In this document: piece by piece, positions 39,969 through 63,794 of the stretch
Layout: each line of letters opens with the position of its first letter
How positions within the stretch are numbered: the stretch's first letter is position 1
Source of the DNA: Poseidonibacter lekithochrous
GTDB taxonomy: Bacteria > Campylobacterota > Campylobacteria > Campylobacterales > Arcobacteraceae
Assembly (NCBI RefSeq): GCF_018861145.1
Contig: NZ_JAHKQT010000023.1
Location: 62,001-126,000 of the forward strand
Direction of reading: 5' to 3'
DNA length: 64,000 bases
Notes under the pieces: generated by a model
The model's database searches: none
Seen by the model: the letters and a program-made list of their open reading frames with translations, nothing else
Told to the model about the DNA's origin: nothing
Program-made: the position numbers and the translations under genes

Positions 39969-40877
39969 GTGGAATTTAGTGGAAATATATTAAGAATTAA
40001 AAATAAAATTTATGCGATAGATAATATAAATAGTGTTGATTATTCAGAAGAGATACTAACATTAAAAAATATTACCTTTCCTATAATGTTTATTCTTACA
40101 ATAATGATTGTCTTTTTTGGAATAAATTCATTTATGATAATTTCATATATTATATTAATAGGTTTGTCTTTTGTAAAAAGAACACGTTATTTTGTTTTTA
40201 TTGATAATAGATTTAAATCGGCTTATTCTACATTTGATGAAGATGATTTTTTAGCTTTTAAGAAGAACCTTGATTATGCAATGCAAAATAAAAAACAACC
40301 TATTAAAAAAGAAGAGGAATTAGAACAATTTTCTGAATCAGTAGAAGAATATAAGATAAGAAAAAGAAAAGAAGCTTTTAAAAAGAACTTAAAGAAACAA
40401 GAAGAAATTTATAAAAATAAACATAAAGAGATTAGAATAGAAGATATAGAAACACCTAATGTAAAAGAAAAAGAAGAATTAAAATCTGGAATGTCAAATA
40501 AAAAGAAAAAAGAAAAAGGTGATGATTATGAAAAGAAAGTTGCTGGATATTATAAATTAGATGGCTATGATATTTATCTAAATGGAATTAAAAAAGACAG
40601 GTTAGATGGTGGAATTGATGTTATTTGTAAAAAAGATGATGAAGTCATATTAATACAATGCAAAAATTGGAATCATACTACTGGGAGAAAAATCACTCAT
40701 ACTCATATTAAAGAATTTCATAGTAATTGTATTAAATACATAGACCAAGAAAACTTAGATAAATCAAATGTAAAATTAAAATATATAGTACCAAATAAGA
40801 AAGTTTTTAAAGCATGTGCAATTAATATATTTAGAGATGATTATTATAATTGCACATATGAGATTTTAGAATTTTAA
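39969..40877 (+). CDS. Membrane-anchored Mrr-like restriction endonuclease domain protein
   Basis: A 302-residue protein starting at GTG 39969. Residues 1-33 form a small beta-rich stretch (NILRIKNKIYAIDNINSV), two hydrophobic helices follow (about 35-69), then a short beta segment and a highly charged Lys/Glu linker (105-185). A C-terminal PD-(D/E)XK nuclease domain of the Mrr_cat type has Glu188, Asp217 (GGIDVIC) and Gln230-Cys-Lys232 (IQCKNW). All key residues are present. Soluble Mrr proteins cut methylated DNA; membrane-tethered versions may act on incoming DNA or in stress. No methylase or toxin partner is adjacent. The role is inferred. Confidence 0.85.
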   Translation: MEFSGNILRIKNKIYAIDNINSVDYSEEILTLKNITFPIMFILTIMIVFFGINSFMIISYIILIGLSFVKRTRYFVFIDNRFKSAYSTFDEDDFLAFKKNLDYAMQNKKQPIKKEEELEQFSESVEEYKIRKRKEAFKKNLKKQEEIYKNKHKEIRIEDIETPNVKEKEELKSGMSNKKKKEKGDDYEKKVAGYYKLDGYDIYLNGIKKDRLDGGIDVICKKDDEVILIQCKNWNHTTGRKITHTHIKEFHSNCIKYIDQENLDKSNVKLKYIVPNKKVFKACAINIFRDDYYNCTYEILEF

Positions 40878-44296: not shown

Positions 44297-45592
44297 TTGA
44301 TTAAAAAATTTAAAAAATATTTATTTGCATTAGTAATTTTACAAGGAAGTTTAATGAGTGCTGACATAAAGCATATAGAAATAAAAGGGATTAAAGTTCC
44401 AGTAGTTTTTGAAAAACAAAATAGTTTACCAATTTTAAATTTACAATTGGTTTTTCAGAACTCAGGTTATATTCAAGATAAAGATAAAAGTGGATTAGCA
44501 AGTTTTTCTTCAAAGTTATTAAATGAAGGAACAAAAGAATTAGGTTCAACAAAGTTTGCACAAAAGTTAGAAGAAAATGCAATTTCTTTACATACTTCAA
44601 ATGGTTTTGAAACTTTTGTAATAGAATTATCAAACTTAAAAGATGTAACTAAGAAATCAATTAATTTATTAACTAAATTAATTGAATCACCAAATTATAC
44701 TGAGGATACTTTAGTTAAGTTAAAGACGTTAAAAACAGGTGAATTAAAAAGAAAAGAGAATGATTTTGATTATACTGCAAAAAATTTATTAAAAGCAAAT
44801 CTTTTTAAAGGTACATCGTTAGCAAGCCCTAGTTCTGGTAATTTAGAAAGTATTCAAAATATTAATCTTAAAGATATAAAGACCTTTATTAACGATACAA
44901 TTAATCTAAATAATTTAATAGTAGTAGCTGGTGGAGATTTTACTTATAAAGAATTTGCAAAGTTAATTCAACCAGTTTTGGATGTTTTAAAGCCAGGAGT
45001 TAAAAGAGAATTAGAAGAGATTAATTTTGTATCTAAAGATGCAGAAGAAACACTAATTAAAGAAACAGAACAAGCTTATATTTATTTTGGTAGTTCATAT
45101 AATGTTACAGCATCTGATGAAAATAGATATATAGCAAAGGTTGCATCATTTATTCTAGGTGGTTCTGGTTTTGGTTCAAGACTTATGGAAGAAATTAGAG
45201 TTAAAAGAGGACTTGCTTATAGTGCTTATGGTTCTGTTTCTATAAATAAATCTCATACATTCTTTAGTGGTTATTTACAAACTAAAAATGAAACAGCAAA
45301 AGAAGCACAATCTTTAGTTAAAGAAATTATTAAAGATTTTGTTAAAAAAGGTGTTACTAAAGATGAGTTAAAAGCTGCAAAAAACTTTTTAACTGGAAGT
45401 GAACCTTTAAGAAATGAAGTTTTATCACAAAGATTAAATAAAGCTTTTACTCTTTATTATAGAGGGTTAGATCAAGATTATCCAAAAAGAGAGTTAGATT
45501 TAATTCAAGATTTAAAACTAGAAGATTTAAATAAGTTTATAAAATCTCATGAAGAGATTAATAATTTAACATTTGCAATTGTAAGGAAATAG
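44297..45592 (+). CDS. M16-family (insulinase-like) protein lacking the HxxEH zinc motif
   Basis: A 431-residue exported protein with a short hydrophobic N-terminus ([19 protein letters not shown], probable signal peptide). Two M16-type domains are present. The zinc site normally HFLEH reads [10 protein letters not shown], so it is probably not catalytic. The C-terminal [20 protein letters not shown], with the Arg/Tyr substrate pair, is intact. Such proteins often form the non-catalytic half of a heterodimer. No catalytic partner gene is nearby. The start is TTG; gltX follows after one base. Confidence 0.88.
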
Positions 45593-45593
45593 T

Positions 45594-46871
45594 TTGTTAA
45601 GATTTGCACCAAGTCCTACATCTAATATGGACATTGAAAGTTTAAGAGTTGCAATATTTAATTATATTGTGGCAAAACAATTAAATGAAGACTTAGTAAT
45701 AAGAATAGAAGATATAGATCAAGAAAAAAATATTGATGGAAAAGATAAAGAAATTTTAGAAATATTGAGTCTTTTTTCTATTGATTATTTAACAGCTGCA
45801 CATCAAAGTGATTCTTTAAAATATCATCAAAAAATGGCTATGCAACTTCTTACAAAAAAGAAAGCATTTTCTTGTTTTTGTGGAGATGCTAAACTTAAAG
45901 AATTAGAAGATGAAGCAAAAGAAAATGGAAAACCTTTTGTATATGATGGTTTTTGTCAAACTTTATCTGATGAAGCAGTTTTAGAAGTAAATGCCCCTTT
46001 TACAGTAAGAATTAACAAACCAGAAGAAAATATCAAATTTACTGATATTTTAAAAGGTGATTTTGATGTAAGGCCTGATGAAGTTGATGCTTTTAATATT
46101 TTAAAACATGATAAAACACCAACATATGATTATGCTTGTGCGGTTGATGATATGTTAATGGATGTTTCATTTATAATTAGAAGTGAAAAATATATTGAAA
46201 ATACTGCTAAGCAAATACATATAAGAAATTCTTTATCTTATACAAAAGAGATTAAATATGCACACTTAACAAAAATTTCTAATATCCCAAATGATTTGAA
46301 CTCTGTAAAAGCATTAATTGAGGAAGGTTTTCTTCCAAGTGCTATTGCAAATTATTTAGTTCTTTTAGGAAATAAGACTCCAAAAGAAATATTTTCTTTG
46401 GAAGAAGCAATAGAATGGTTTAAGATTGAAGATATTTCAAAAAATGTAACTAATTTTGATATTGAAAAATTAAGATTTATTAATAAAAAACATTTAGAAC
46501 AAATGGATGAAATGAGACTATCTAAATTATTAGGTTTTGCAGATTTAGATATAGGAAAACTTGGAAAAATATACTTAGAAGAAGTTTCTACATTAAAAGA
46601 GTTAAAAGCTAAAATACACACAATCTTTGAAGAAAAAACTACTTGTAAAGGTTTTGAAAGTGAGTTTATAAAGTTGAAAACATGTTTACAAGATGCTCCA
46701 TATTATGATGATTTTAATGAGTTAAGTAAATATATTACAAATGAAACTAGATTAAAAGATGAATCTTTAACTAAGCCTTTAAGATATCTTTTAACAGGAG
46801 AAGAAACTGGACCTGATATTTCAAATATTTATGCATTAATTAAAAACTACTTAGGAGAAATTATAAAATGA
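45594..46871 (+). CDS. gltX: Glutamyl-tRNA synthetase paralogue with degraded catalytic motifs
   Basis: A 425-residue class I synthetase fold. The start [20 protein letters not shown] aligns with the normal PSPTG..HIG.LR.A.FN, but HIGN reads DIES (residues 13-16). The second ATP motif, KLSKR, is missing: [17 protein letters not shown] appears to lack about seven residues there. The rest ([38 protein letters not shown]) is well kept, so this is not a random pseudogene. Other Campylobacterota carry a second GltX for Glu-tRNA(Gln); here glnS lies 2.4 kb away, so the paralogue may have lost that task. The start is TTG with AAGGA, coupled to the M16 gene. Confidence 0.9.
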
Positions 46872-47140
46872 TAGATGCTTTCACAACTTCAGTACTTACT
46901 GTAGTTTTAACAATTATATCTTTATATAAATGGGTTATTATAATCTCAGCATTACTAACATGGGTACGACCAGATCCAAATAATCCTATTGTTCAAATGT
47001 TATATAGATTAACAGAACCAGCGTATGCTTTTGTGAGAAGATATATTCCTACTGTTTTTGGTGGTATGGATTTAGCTCCATTAATATTAATCTTTGGATT
47101 AATGTTCTTAGAAATTTTCTTAAAAAACCTATTCTTTTAG
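46868..47140 (+). CDS. YggT-family membrane protein
   Basis: A 90-residue integral membrane protein with two hydrophobic helices. The segment [20 protein letters not shown] followed by [20 protein letters not shown] is the conserved YggT core. Members are poorly understood; in other bacteria they are linked to osmotic shock, cell division or membrane complexes. It overlaps the last codon and stop of the gltX gene (4 bases) and is followed by the lytic transglycosylase after 9 bases, so all are in one transcript. Confidence 0.9.
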
Positions 47141-47149
47141 TAGGATATT

Positions 47150-48802
47150 ATGAAAAAATTAGTAGCTTCACTATTTTGCTTTGTGGCATTAAATCTTAAT
47201 GCAAATACTGAAGCTGTTAATATTACAGACAAAGGTTTTAAAGTCACACTAGATTGGCTTGAAGAAAAACCAAAATCTTATGCAAAAGATTTTTTTATTA
47301 TTCAATATTTAAATCAAAAAGATATTAGTGAAGAAGAGGCACAAACAGCTTATGATATGTCAAAAGCTAAAAAAGGGAGAGTTAAAAAAGCTTTTAATAA
47401 AAGATTTTCTAAAATTCCAAATAAAGACTTAAGATGTTATAGAGCAAAGCCAAAAGATTTGCTCAAAGAAAACTCTAGATGTATTTCTTTAGGTTTAAGT
47501 ATTTTTGATGCAACTACAATGTCAAAAGAAAACTTAAAACTTGCAATTGAAAAGATTAAAGACTACCCTACTTTAGCAAATGATTTAAAAATATTTGCTT
47601 CTGATGATCCTTTTAATGCATTAATAAATACAAATACAAGTAGATTTTATAGATTGTTTTTTGATTCAAGAGATACTTATCGTACAAATATTATAAATAA
47701 TATTATGCCGGAAAGTTTTATTGATAAGCTAGCAAAAGAAAATAGTTTTAATAGATTTATAACTTATGTTGTTCATCGAGGTAAATTAGATAAGGTTCAA
47801 AAGTCCTTATTTAACGTAAAAAACAATAATAAAATCACGAATCAAACTTTTTTTTCATTAGCTTTAAATGCGATTAACCACAATGAAGAATTAGTCGCTT
47901 TAAATTATTTAAACAAAGCATATTCTAAATCCTATTTACAATCAGATAAAGATAGAGCCCTTTTTTGGATTTATTTATTAACACAAAATAAAACATTTTT
48001 AAATAAAACGGCACAAAGTTGGGATAATAACTTATACTCTTTATATGCTAAAGAGTTATTAGAAGTTCCAATTGACAATGTTTATTATGATATTGATATT
48101 CCAAATACGCCAACTACATATAATACATTAGATCAATTTGAATGGATAGAAGTTGATATAGATACAAAGAAAAATCTTGATGATAATAAACTTGCTAAAT
48201 ATTCAAAGTTATTTACAGATGCATCAACATTACCTCATTATGCTTATGTATTAGAAAGATATGCGAAATATAGAAAGCAATATTATATTAAACCTTTTAG
48301 AGATATTATGAAAAATTATGATGTTAATAGACAAGTTTTAATGTATGCTATTGGAAGACAAGAAAGTAGATTTATCCCTTCAGCAGTTTCTTTTGCGACT
48401 GCACAAGGTGTAATGCAAATCATGCCATTCTTATCAAAAGAATTAGCAAAGCAGCTAAATGAGTCATATAATATTTATGAACAGTTTTTACCAGAAGTAA
48501 ATTTAAGGTATGCAAATAAACATCTTAATTCTTTAGAAAAACAATTTGATAAAAATCCTTTATTTATAGCTTATGCATATAATGGGGGTCCAGGATATAC
48601 AAGAAGTCAATTTAAACGTGGATTATTTAAAGAAAAAAATAGATTTGAACCCTTTATGAGTATGGAGCTAATTTCATATGAAGAAACTAGAAAATATGGT
48701 AGAAAAGTTTTAACAAATTACTATATTTATAATAATCACTTAAATGAAGAAAATAAAGTGACTTTATCTTCTATTTTTCAAACTTTAATTCTGCCGAATT
48801 AG
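47150..48802 (+). CDS. slt: Soluble lytic murein transglycosylase
   Basis: A 550-residue periplasmic enzyme that cleaves the glycan strand with formation of 1,6-anhydromuramic acid. A signal peptide (KKLVASLFCFVALNLNAN) is followed by an alpha-superhelical domain of about 350 residues. The C-terminal Slt domain (about 395-530) has the catalytic Glu in GRQESRFIPSAVS and the typical AQGVMQIMP and AYNGGPGYTRS motifs. Its last 32 bases overlap the end of the convergent lipoprotein gene. Confidence 0.93.
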   Translation: MKKLVASLFCFVALNLNANTEAVNITDKGFKVTLDWLEEKPKSYAKDFFIIQYLNQKDISEEEAQTAYDMSKAKKGRVKKAFNKRFSKIPNKDLRCYRAKPKDLLKENSRCISLGLSIFDATTMSKENLKLAIEKIKDYPTLANDLKIFASDDPFNALINTNTSRFYRLFFDSRDTYRTNIINNIMPESFIDKLAKENSFNRFITYVVHRGKLDKVQKSLFNVKNNNKITNQTFFSLALNAINHNEELVALNYLNKAYSKSYLQSDKDRALFWIYLLTQNKTFLNKTAQSWDNNLYSLYAKELLEVPIDNVYYDIDIPNTPTTYNTLDQFEWIEVDIDTKKNLDDNKLAKYSKLFTDASTLPHYAYVLERYAKYRKQYYIKPFRDIMKNYDVNRQVLMYAIGRQESRFIPSAVSFATAQGVMQIMPFLSKELAKQLNESYNIYEQFLPEVNLRYANKHLNSLEKQFDKNPLFIAYAYNGGPGYTRSQFKRGLFKEKNRFEPFMSMELISYEETRKYGRKVLTNYYIYNNHLNEENKVTLSSIFQTLILPN

Positions 48803-49250
48803 AGTTTGTATTACTTAAAGTAAAAGTTAAGTCATAACTATCTTTTACTTCATTAAACTTTACAAGATAGTATTTCCCCCATGTGTTTTTTGATAATATA
48901 TCTTTATATTTTTCATTATCAGTTTGAATCTCTTCAATAGATTTAGGCTTCTTTCCATTTAAAGTAAAAAAGTATCCATTTTCATTTATATCTTGACTCT
49001 TTTCTTCTACAAAATAAATAGATGTAACAAATACTTCATCTTTTGAATCAAATTCTGTAATATCAGTATTATTTAAATATGTTCCCCATAAAAGAACTTT
49101 TTGCTCTTTATTTATAATTACATCAGCTTTTTTTGTGTATTGCATAGCTTTTGATTCAAACTCACTTTTGTCAAAATGCTTTAATGCTGTAGTTGATGAA
49201 CATCCTATTACTATAGTTGATAATATTGATAAAGATAAAGTTTTGTACAT
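48771..49250 (-). CDS. Probable lipoprotein of unknown function
   Basis: A 159-residue protein with a lipoprotein signal peptide. The lipobox is VIGC, with the acylated Cys at residue 17 followed by SSTT. The remainder is polar and has no recognised domain; hydrophobic strands alternate with Lys/Asp-rich turns (KVLLWGTYLNNTDI, EVFVTSIYFVEE), suggesting a small beta-rich domain. It overlaps the convergent slt gene by 32 bases. It lies 27 bases from the stop of glnS on the same strand and may be co-transcribed with it. Confidence 0.82.
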   Translation of the reverse strand: MYKTLSLSILSTIVIGCSSTTALKHFDKSEFESKAMQYTKKADVIINKEQKVLLWGTYLNNTDITEFDSKDEVFVTSIYFVEEKSQDINENGYFFTLNGKKPKSIEEIQTDNEKYKDILSKNTWGKYYLVKFNEVKDSYDLTFTLSNTNSNSAELKFEK

Positions 49251-49277: not shown

Positions 49278-51551
49278 CTATTTTAACTTTTGTGCAACTA
49301 ACTGATTTACAACTTTAGGATTTGCTTTACCACCAGTGCTCTTTAATACTTGCCCTACAAAGAAACCTAAAAGTTTAGTATTACCTTCTTTAAATTTAGC
49401 AACATTATCTGGATTTTTTGCAATTACTTCATCAATAATAGGTGAAATAATTGCAGGATCACTTATTTGGATAAGTCCTTTGTCTTCAACTATTTTTGAC
49501 GGACTTTCTCCACTTTTTACCATTTCTTCAAAAACTTGTTTTGCAATTTTACTTGAAATTGTACCAGTATCGAGAATTTTAACAAGTTGTGCTATTTGCT
49601 CTGCTGTAAATTTAAGCTGATTTATTTCTTTGTCTTTTAATTCTCTAGCAACTTCAGTAACAATAATATTTGCTAAACTAATAGGGCTATTAAGAGTAGA
49701 TAAAGCTTCTTCATAAAAACTTGAAAGTTTTTCATCACGTGCTAAAATATTTGCTACTTCATTATTTAAACTAAGTTCTTTTGAATACTTATTAAATAAC
49801 ACTTTTTCCTCATCACTCATAGCAGCAACTTCACCAACTACTTGTTCATTTTTTGCTTGTTTTTTTATTTCGTTTTTTTCTTCATTTTTAGAATTTGATT
49901 CTTCACTTTTTGTTTTTTTACCCCAAGAATCTTTAAGTCCAACTATTTTATTAAATACAGGTTTTTCATCTCTATAATCAATTGGATCAGCATAAAAATA
50001 TCCCTGTCTTTCAAACTGAAATCTTTCATCTATTTTTTCAAGTATAACAGCAGGTTCAATAAGTGCATTTTTAACAATTTTTAAAGAATCAGGATTTAAA
50101 TCTTCTATTCCTTCAGGGGCTTCATTTTTAAATAATCTATCATAAAGTCTTACTTCAATTTGTTTAGCTTCTTTAGAACTAACCCATTGAATAGCACTTT
50201 TTACTTTAATTCCACTAGTATCACTTCCACTTTTTGAATCAGGATAATATTTTGCTTTTAACTCACAAATATTTCCATTCTCATCTTTTATAACTTCTTC
50301 ACAAGTAATTATATATCCATGTCTTAATCGTACAGCTTGTGTAGGAGTTAAACGGAAGTATCCTTTTTCAGGATTTTGTGAAAAATCATCTCTTTCTATA
50401 TAAATCTCTTTTGAAAAAGGTACTTTTCTACTACCCTCTTTTGGTACATCATGTGGATAATATGAAGCATCAAGGTCTTCGCTACCTTCATAGTTTTCTA
50501 TTGTAACTTTAAGTGGATCAAGAACACACATAACTCGTGGTACTTTTTTATTTAAATCATCTCTAATACAAAATTCTAGTTGTGCAACATCAACCATTGA
50601 ATTAGCTTTTGCAACTCCAATTTGATCACAGAAGTTTAAGATAGATTCTTTTGTATAACCCTTTCTTTTATATCCAGCAATTGTAGGCATTCTAGGGTCA
50701 TCCCACCCATCAACATATTTGCCATCAACTAATTCTAAAAGTTTTCTTTTACTCATAACTGTGTAATTTATACCAAGTCGAGCAAATTCATGTTGGTATG
50801 GACGTGGTAATTCTAGTTTTAAAGTATCTAATACCCAATTATAAATATCACGATTATTTTCAAACTCTAAAGTACAAATTGAATGAGAAACACCTTCAAT
50901 ATAATCAGATAAACAATGAGCAAAATCATACATTGGATAAATACACCATTTATCCTCTGCTCTAAAATGATGGGCATGTCTAATTCGATATAAAAGTGGA
51001 TCTCTTAATTTCATATTAGAAGCACCCATATCAATTTTAGCTCTTAAAACATGTTCTCCGTCTTTAAACTCACCATTTTTCATTTTTTCAAAAAGGTCTA
51101 AATTTTCTTCAATAGTTCTGTTTGCAAATTTACTTCGTACTCCTGCTTGTGTAACAGTTCCCCTATTCTCACGCATCTGTTCTTCATTTACACTATCAAC
51201 ATATGCCTTATCCATTTTAATAAGTTTGATTGCATAATCATATATTTTATCAAAATAATCTGAAGTAAAACGTACATCTTCTCCCCAATCAAAGCCAAGC
51301 CATTGCACAGCATCTTTTAGTGCTTCTACATATTTTGTATCTTCTTTTGTAGGATTTGTATCATCCATTCTAAGGTTACAAGTACCATTAAAATCAGATG
51401 CAATACCAAAATTTATACAAATAGATTTTGCATGTCCTATATGAGGAAAGCCGTTTGGCTCAGGTGGGAATCTAGTAATAACCTCTTTATATTTGCCAGA
51501 CTTTAAGTCCTCATTTACTATTGCATGTAAAAAATCTTTATTTTCACTCAT
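49278..51551 (-). CDS. glnS: Glutaminyl-tRNA synthetase with C-terminal YqeY-like domain
   Basis: A 757-residue class I synthetase. The HIGH motif is PPEPNGFPHIGHAKSI and the KMSKS-type motif is VMSKRKL, both intact. The anticodon-binding beta-barrels follow (about 340-550). After a Lys/Glu-rich spacer the last 150 residues form a GatB/YqeY-like helical domain (LVKILDTGTISSKIAKQVF), known as an appendix of some bacterial GlnRS such as Deinococcus. It charges tRNA(Gln) directly. Many Campylobacterota lack GlnRS and use GatCAB, so this is a noteworthy presence; the tRNA-Gln gene lies at the right end of the window. Confidence 0.94.
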   Translation of the reverse strand: MSENKDFLHAIVNEDLKSGKYKEVITRFPPEPNGFPHIGHAKSICINFGIASDFNGTCNLRMDDTNPTKEDTKYVEALKDAVQWLGFDWGEDVRFTSDYFDKIYDYAIKLIKMDKAYVDSVNEEQMRENRGTVTQAGVRSKFANRTIEENLDLFEKMKNGEFKDGEHVLRAKIDMGASNMKLRDPLLYRIRHAHHFRAEDKWCIYPMYDFAHCLSDYIEGVSHSICTLEFENNRDIYNWVLDTLKLELPRPYQHEFARLGINYTVMSKRKLLELVDGKYVDGWDDPRMPTIAGYKRKGYTKESILNFCDQIGVAKANSMVDVAQLEFCIRDDLNKKVPRVMCVLDPLKVTIENYEGSEDLDASYYPHDVPKEGSRKVPFSKEIYIERDDFSQNPEKGYFRLTPTQAVRLRHGYIITCEEVIKDENGNICELKAKYYPDSKSGSDTSGIKVKSAIQWVSSKEAKQIEVRLYDRLFKNEAPEGIEDLNPDSLKIVKNALIEPAVILEKIDERFQFERQGYFYADPIDYRDEKPVFNKIVGLKDSWGKKTKSEESNSKNEEKNEIKKQAKNEQVVGEVAAMSDEEKVLFNKYSKELSLNNEVANILARDEKLSSFYEEALSTLNSPISLANIIVTEVARELKDKEINQLKFTAEQIAQLVKILDTGTISSKIAKQVFEEMVKSGESPSKIVEDKGLIQISDPAIISPIIDEVIAKNPDNVAKFKEGNTKLLGFFVGQVLKSTGGKANPKVVNQLVAQKLK

Positions 51552-51957: not shown

Positions 51958-52455
51958 ATGAATAAAAAAAGATTAATAGTGGCCTTCTCAGGACCATCAA
52001 ATAGTGGAAAAACGACAGCAATAGTTAAAGTATCAAATATCCTTCAAGATAGAGGGTTTAAGGTTTGTATTATTAAACATGATCCAAAAGATAAAGCCAT
52101 GTTTGATAGACCAGGAAAAGATTCGTTTAAATTTGGAGAAACAGGTGCAGATGTTGCAGTAGTAAGTCCTAATAAAACTACTTTATTGAAAAAAACAACT
52201 TCTACAATTAATGAAATGATTGAATTATTTGATGATTTTGATTACTTACTAGTTGAAGGTTTAAAAACTCTAGACTTACCTAGAATTTCTATTTTTAGAA
52301 ATAATTTAAATGAAGATTATTTTAAAGTTACGGATGCAATAGCTAGTGACGACACTATTAATGATGATGACATTCCATCATCAATTGAGAAATTAAACTT
52401 AAACTCTCCAGAAGATATGATTATCTGGATTGATAAAAACGCAAAGAGAGTATAA
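51958..52455 (+). CDS. mobB: Molybdopterin-guanine dinucleotide biosynthesis protein B
   Basis: A 165-residue P-loop GTPase that aids the last step of molybdenum cofactor synthesis. The Walker A motif is [12 protein letters not shown] (residues 10-21). [20 protein letters not shown] and GADVAVVSP are typical of MobB. The closing [14 protein letters not shown] corresponds to the VEG motif. The other cofactor genes are not in the window. No Shine-Dalgarno sequence precedes it. fbp begins 2 bases after the stop. Confidence 0.92.
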
Positions 52456-63719: not shown

Positions 63720-63794
63720 TGGGGTATCGCCAAGTGGTAAGGCAACGGCTTTTGGTGCCGTCATTCGAAGGTTCGAATCCTTCTACCCCATCCA
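63720..63794 (+). tRNA. tRNA-Gln (anticodon TTG)
   Basis: Acceptor TGGGGTA pairs with TACCCCA, and CCA is encoded. The anticodon arm ACGGC-TTTTGGT-GCCGT gives anticodon TTG reading CAA. The T arm has GGTTCGAATCC. This is the substrate of GlnRS (49278-51551). Confidence 0.96.

Follow-up and report, generated by a model that had tools for sequence, protein, structure and literature searches.

Intact GluRS2 normally makes Glu-tRNA(Gln) for GatCAB. The closest described system is the H. pylori-type GluRS2, an active enzyme with intact HIGN and KMSKR motifs (PMC9976931) in an organism that has no GlnRS. A survey of 2014, which gives the HIGH-motif signature of GluRS2 as H-phi-G-N, recorded GlnRS together with GluRS2 in six of ten epsilon-proteobacterial genomes and, regarding GluRS2 as obligatory, suggested that the GlnRS of this group may have no function (PMC3927822). 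The two enzymes are also reported to occur together in Mesorhizobium (PMC3927822). Several synthetase relatives with functions other than charging have been described. HisZ, a HisRS paralogue without adenylation activity, is a non-catalytic bacterial paralogue kept as a partner, namely as the regulatory subunit of HisG (PMC9437257). The ArgRS-like eukaryotic protein DALRD3, which has no synthetase core, recruits METTL2 to tRNA(Arg) and binds tRNA rather than charging it (PMC7237682). GluQ-RS (YadB), a GluRS paralogue with another function, is an active enzyme that has no anticodon domain. In the literature searched, from whose coverage most subscription papers fall outside, we found no report of motif loss in GluRS2; non-catalytic synthetase paralogues are already known (HisZ, DALRD3), and a recurrent one derived from GluRS2 after the gain of GlnRS appears to be new.

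The window, a 64,000-nucleotide stretch of Poseidonibacter lekithochrous DNA, belongs to a 3.0-Mb Arcobacteraceae genome whose nearest named relatives include Poseidonibacter ostreae. Translation, profile match and fold model identify the gene at 45594–46871 (+) as gltX2 encoding a degenerate GluRS2, a pseudo-synthetase of 425 amino acids with a TTG start, position 1 being methionine in nearly all degenerate homologues from the other families. Its TIGR00464 score is 330.7 bits (cut-off 289.95). By translation and alignment, the HIGH-motif position (45630–45641, +) now reads D13-I14-E15-S16, where intact orthologues have HIGN. At residues 224–240 (46263–46313, +) the alignment pairs the loop [17 protein letters not shown] of the window protein with [24 protein letters not shown] of intact orthologues, indicating that the KMSKR loop has been deleted, with a loss of about 8 residues, and the R-G-E-D-H motif is also absent. 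The frame is open, with a stop-free orthologue in nine congeneric genomes at 67–87% identity. An AlphaFold model has a mean pLDDT of 95.3, which, as the input alignment included intact copies, indicates fold compatibility and not measured folding; it matches E. coli GluRS (8i9i) with a Z score of 36.4 over 418 residues. A first-pass annotation had read DIES at residues 13–16, an apparently deleted KLSKR loop and an otherwise maintained fold and frame, and these readings were borne out.

A match was obtained in each of the 104 Arcobacteraceae genomes searched, and almost all of them carry two copies, one GltX1-like with about 33–35% identity and the other orthologous to the window gene with 50–100% identity. 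The orthologue of glnS-negative relatives has the sequence GDMHIGN...GKKMSKR, with the H-phi-G-N signature, implying that the window gene is a GluRS2 minus its motifs. It resembles the H. pylori-type enzyme in orthology, in its full-length fold and in the company of GluRS1 and GatCAB, but differs in that its motifs are gone and GlnRS is present. The fold match to GluQ-RS has a Z score of 28–29, and the protein scores under the GluQRS cut-offs; full-length and devoid of the motifs, it does not belong to the GluQ-RS (YadB) family, whose members are truncated but active. The zinc knuckle CxC...Y...C (C94, C96, Y117, C121; motif as defined in PMC4381286) is retained in the acceptor-arm insertion (45873–45956, +). 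HisZ differs from degenerate GltX2 in being a class II protein of one old origin with a known partner, whereas degenerate GltX2 is of class I with many recent independent origins; unlike DALRD3, degenerate GltX2 keeps the whole synthetase fold.

The first-pass annotation had suggested searching the genome for another intact gltX and for gatCAB. Such a gltX1, with HIGG and KLSKR, is found at another site (G000:C33:46317-47651), and GatB is present. The GlnRS with a YqeY-type tail, said to lie 2.4 kb away, was confirmed at 49278–51551 (−), about 2.4 kb from gltX2 (NF011291, 1225 bits). The window also carries a tRNA-Gln (UUG) at 63720–63794 (+) with the U1-A72 pair kept in its acceptor stem. No AsnRS scored above the family cut-off in the host genome, which, together with the presence of GatB, implies that GatCAB is needed for Asn-tRNA regardless of glnS.

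To relate motif state to glnS across the Campylobacterales, gltX2 loci were extracted by tblastn. The GlnRS search was positive in 62 of 104 Arcobacteraceae genomes and in 116 of the 349 genomes of the order, and GltX2 was read in the Arcobacteraceae, in 80 glnS-positive genomes outside the family and in 80 glnS-negative genomes, about 225 genes in all. Motif loss matches the presence of glnS: of the 126 GltX2 genes examined from glnS-positive genomes 119 are degenerate and 7 intact, and of the 100 from glnS-negative genomes 99 are intact (Fisher p about 1e-54, relatedness ignored). The loss in the window is therefore no chance event. These counts support the earlier proposal that the gain of GlnRS removed the need for GltX. 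Motif loss without glnS, which had been named beforehand as the contrary finding, occurs in one of the 100 glnS-negative genomes only, G086, a 74%-complete MAG from which glnS may simply be missing. G212 was considered as a glnS-negative genome with degenerate GltX2 and rejected, as the tail of a glnS (56% identity) ends at the contig end; it is counted as glnS-positive. G139 is intact in spite of a long upstream frame.

The seven glnS-positive genomes with intact GltX2 (G052, G056, G060, G224, G309, G356 and G399) look like early stages in which glnS is present and the motifs are still there, and some could be artefacts, G052 being a MAG with 7% contamination and G060 being 86% complete. G054 was left out of the counts because its glnS match is ridden with stops; its GltX2 is intact, as if glnS had decayed instead of gltX2. 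Together, the seven cases and G054 suggest an order of events in which glnS came first and motif loss second. Two glnS-like stretches are full of in-frame stops, with 15 in L271 (G054:C171) and 22 in L272 (G081:C290), and are apparent remnants. In f14, f17 and part of f13 (for example G116, G119 and G159) neither GltX2 nor glnS was found and GatB is present; GltX1 may charge both tRNAs in these genomes. In the glnS-negative G140, GltX2 is split by a frameshift into two adjoining pieces (L265), with HIGN and RGEDH intact in the part read; the frameshift is possibly a sequencing error.

Motif loss arose repeatedly and independently. On a GltX2 tree built with the motif columns left out, motif state changes about 22 times, and 16 of these changes are forced by well-supported branches. 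Families f1, f4, f6, f16 and f20 form single supported groups, the support for f7 is weak, and each of the six holds both degenerate and intact GltX2. Independent pairs differing in glnS were concordant in about 11–12 cases and opposite in none (commonest draw 12 to 0; median p 0.0005). In the Arcobacteraceae alone there are 7 changes, 4 of them forced, and the pair test by itself does not reach significance. The tree was built by a quick method and includes fast-evolving rows; because such rows tend to cluster, the count of changes would be lowered rather than raised.

The degenerate genes remain under purifying selection. Maximum-likelihood estimates of dN/dS (IQ-TREE codon runs) were 0.038–0.083 in five degenerate groups and 0.017–0.033 in four intact groups, a relaxation of about twofold that is far from neutral; the dN/dS analysis suggested in the first-pass annotation thus found constraint within the degenerate groups. 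Frames are open in nearly all of the roughly 118 degenerate copies, across genera and families, and the set as a whole shows neither the broken frames nor the dN/dS near 1 of pseudogenes. We infer from the open frames and from dN/dS values of 0.04–0.08 that most degenerate GltX2 proteins are functional pseudo-enzymes. Relaxation is uneven along the protein: the region of the KMSKR loop and the stem-contact fold shows a rise in dN/dS of about 3-fold (95% interval 2.0–5.2), the second Rossmann half of 2-fold (1.2–4.1) and the last helical bundle of 1.5-fold (1.2–2.0); no significant rise is seen in the first Rossmann half, in the zinc insertion or in anticodon bundle 1. Constraint is thus lost mainly around the active site. 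The zinc ligands are kept in 57 of 57 degenerate Arcobacteraceae copies, and the three cysteines in 54–55 of the 59 others.

The losses are not limited to ATP binding. Most degenerate copies no longer have RGEDH (G197, D199). The glutamate-pocket residues R3, S7, E39, Y178 and R196, whose roles we assume to be those of T. thermophilus GluRS, are all present in the window copy, and elsewhere the pocket is eroding, with Y178 kept in 41 of 57 Arcobacteraceae and 24 of 59 other degenerate copies and R196 in 44 of 57 and 35 of 59. In the anticodon domain, about half of the copies retain K386 and R405. The mean net charge falls from -3.6 to -14.7, by about 11 units, in all six families. With the motif columns set aside, the mean still drops from -6.1 to -13.4, with about 8 independent pairs in this direction against 0.3 in the other (median p 0.016, range 0.001–0.29). 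On average about ten basic residues are lost, in every family and most strongly in the stem-contact region. The acidic shift in every family indicates that tRNA binding is probably weakened, and the drift could also be plain relaxation. The first-pass guess of a role in tRNA or glutamate binding fares poorly against this loss of basic residues and the eroding pocket, the window copy being one that keeps its pocket.

In the window, gltX2 opens the series gltX2-yggT-slt-lipoprotein-mobB, with yggT at 46868–47140 (+), the slt transglycosylase gene at 47150–48802 (+), a small putative lipoprotein gene at 48771–49250 (−) and mobB at the far end at 51958–52455 (+). This order is common to glnS-positive and glnS-negative genomes across families and is an old locus. 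In several families glnS sits inside or beside it, at differing sites and in differing orientations: between the lipoprotein gene and mobB in the species group of the window (the window and G003), after yggT in G082, divergently upstream in f16, and, in 14 of 18 cases in f20, immediately upstream in the same orientation, separated by 1–4 bp. In two sister species of the window's genus (G001, G004) the lipoprotein gene adjoins mobB without glnS, implying that glnS was inserted in the lineage of the window. In most Arcobacteraceae glnS lies far from gltX2, and linkage is weak there except in five genomes. The linkage fits a functional tie between the two genes; alternatively, it could reflect recombination at a common locus.

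We consider it probable, judging from sequence, that degenerate GltX2 is a catalytically dead GluRS2 that was freed by the gain of glnS and has been kept for a second role already in place, likely the binding of a protein partner. Intact GluRS2 charges tRNA(Gln) with Glu for GatCAB; upon the gain of glnS, Gln-tRNA(Gln) would be made directly, and synthetase chemistry would be released from selection. The ATP motifs would be lost first or together, the KMSKR loop and RGED before HIGH; basic tRNA-facing residues and some of the glutamate pocket would erode afterwards, with the protein kept for a function independent of aminoacylation. Retention after many independent losses makes a pre-existing role likelier than a new invention each time, and the acidic surface, combined with the constrained fold core, zinc insertion and anticodon bundle 1, suggests that this role is the binding of a protein partner. 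The partner would most plausibly belong to the Gln/Asn tRNA machinery, either GatCAB, for which an interaction with the zinc domain has been proposed (PMC4381286), or GlnRS itself. There is an even chance, in our estimate, that active GltX2 is bifunctional across the Campylobacterales, including the Helicobacter and Campylobacter relatives, in which case the lineages that acquired glnS would be natural separation-of-function mutants that have only the second role left. The system amounts to a repeated natural experiment in which synthetase chemistry has been removed and most of the protein retained in many lineages, making a putative hidden second function of GluRS2 directly testable. GlnRS is predicted to be the working enzyme in these bacteria, the motif data running opposite to the published suggestion on GlnRS (PMC3927822), and automatic annotation labels this pseudo-synthetase family 'glutamate--tRNA ligase'.

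Retention could instead reflect a tRNA(Gln)-binding helper, in which the dead synthetase holds tRNA(Gln) or hands it to GlnRS or to a modifying enzyme, in the manner of DALRD3. We regard this as rather unlikely. Constraint on the zinc/acceptor insertion and anticodon bundle 1 is near normal, as such a helper would have it, and at the two positions that we equate with the tRNA(Gln) determinants of H. pylori GluRS2 (E338 and G414 in reference numbering) the window protein has E and G, as do about 75–85% of degenerate copies. The linkage of glnS to the gltX2 locus and the precedent of DALRD3 acting on human tRNA(Arg) (PMC7237682) point the same way. However, the basic residues have been lost in six families, most strongly in the stem-contact region, R405 and K386 survive in only about half of the copies, and a protein that bound tRNA(Gln) tightly would be a competitor of GlnRS.

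Slow decay without function, the frame persisting for a time after GlnRS had made the gene redundant, is disfavoured and seems improbable. Constraint is indeed relaxed, and the seven glnS-positive genomes with intact motifs are what recent redundancy would be expected to leave. A fraction of the degenerate set may be decaying, since G138, G242 and G262 have short or broken copies, and GltX2 is absent altogether in some glnS-positive lineages (for example G109, G143, G222, G345 and G111; f9 and some genomes of f7 and f20 are of this kind), which suggests that the second role is dispensable there and hence not universal. These lineages offer a comparison set for whatever replaces that role. Yet dN/dS values lie far below 1 in each of five separate degenerate groups, frames stay open in nearly all copies across genera and families, the zinc cysteines are invariant and relaxation is confined to certain regions. 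Of the two outcomes offered by the first-pass annotation, a decaying gene or a pseudo-enzyme, these data, together with the fold, favour the pseudo-enzyme and count against decay.

A trans-editing factor that hydrolyses Glu-tRNA(Gln) would draw on the direct orthologue in H. pylori, which hydrolyses excess Glu-tRNA(Gln) according to the title of Huot et al. 2011, and on the five pocket residues kept in the window copy; the erosion of Y178 and R196 elsewhere and the loss of basic surface, which argues against tRNA binding, leave this quite doubtful. It is very improbable that gltX2 is kept only in cis, as a frame and stop for translational coupling to yggT. The start codon of yggT overlaps the gltX2 stop in the window and many relatives and gene order is conserved across families, but the two genes lie about 20–60 bp apart in other families, and coupling would preserve the frame and not the residues, whereas dN/dS of 0.04–0.08 and an intact predicted fold indicate selection on the protein. 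A still-active synthetase with unusual motifs is disfavoured and hardly credible: most of the amino-acid pocket is there in the window copy, but neither HIGH nor RGED survives, the KMSKR loop has been physically removed, and the replacement letters vary from lineage to lineage, so that no alternative motif emerges.

Two further genes of the window were noted. In the M16-family protein encoded upstream of gltX2 at 44297–45592 (+), an HxxEH zinc motif is absent from the N-terminal domain, and the M16 'inactive domain' is the sole M16 profile with a good score; the gltX2 operon may therefore hold a second non-catalytic family member. The ORF at 39969–40877 (+), which adjoins bamA, encodes a restriction endonuclease domain of the Mrr type (PF04471, E 9e-8).
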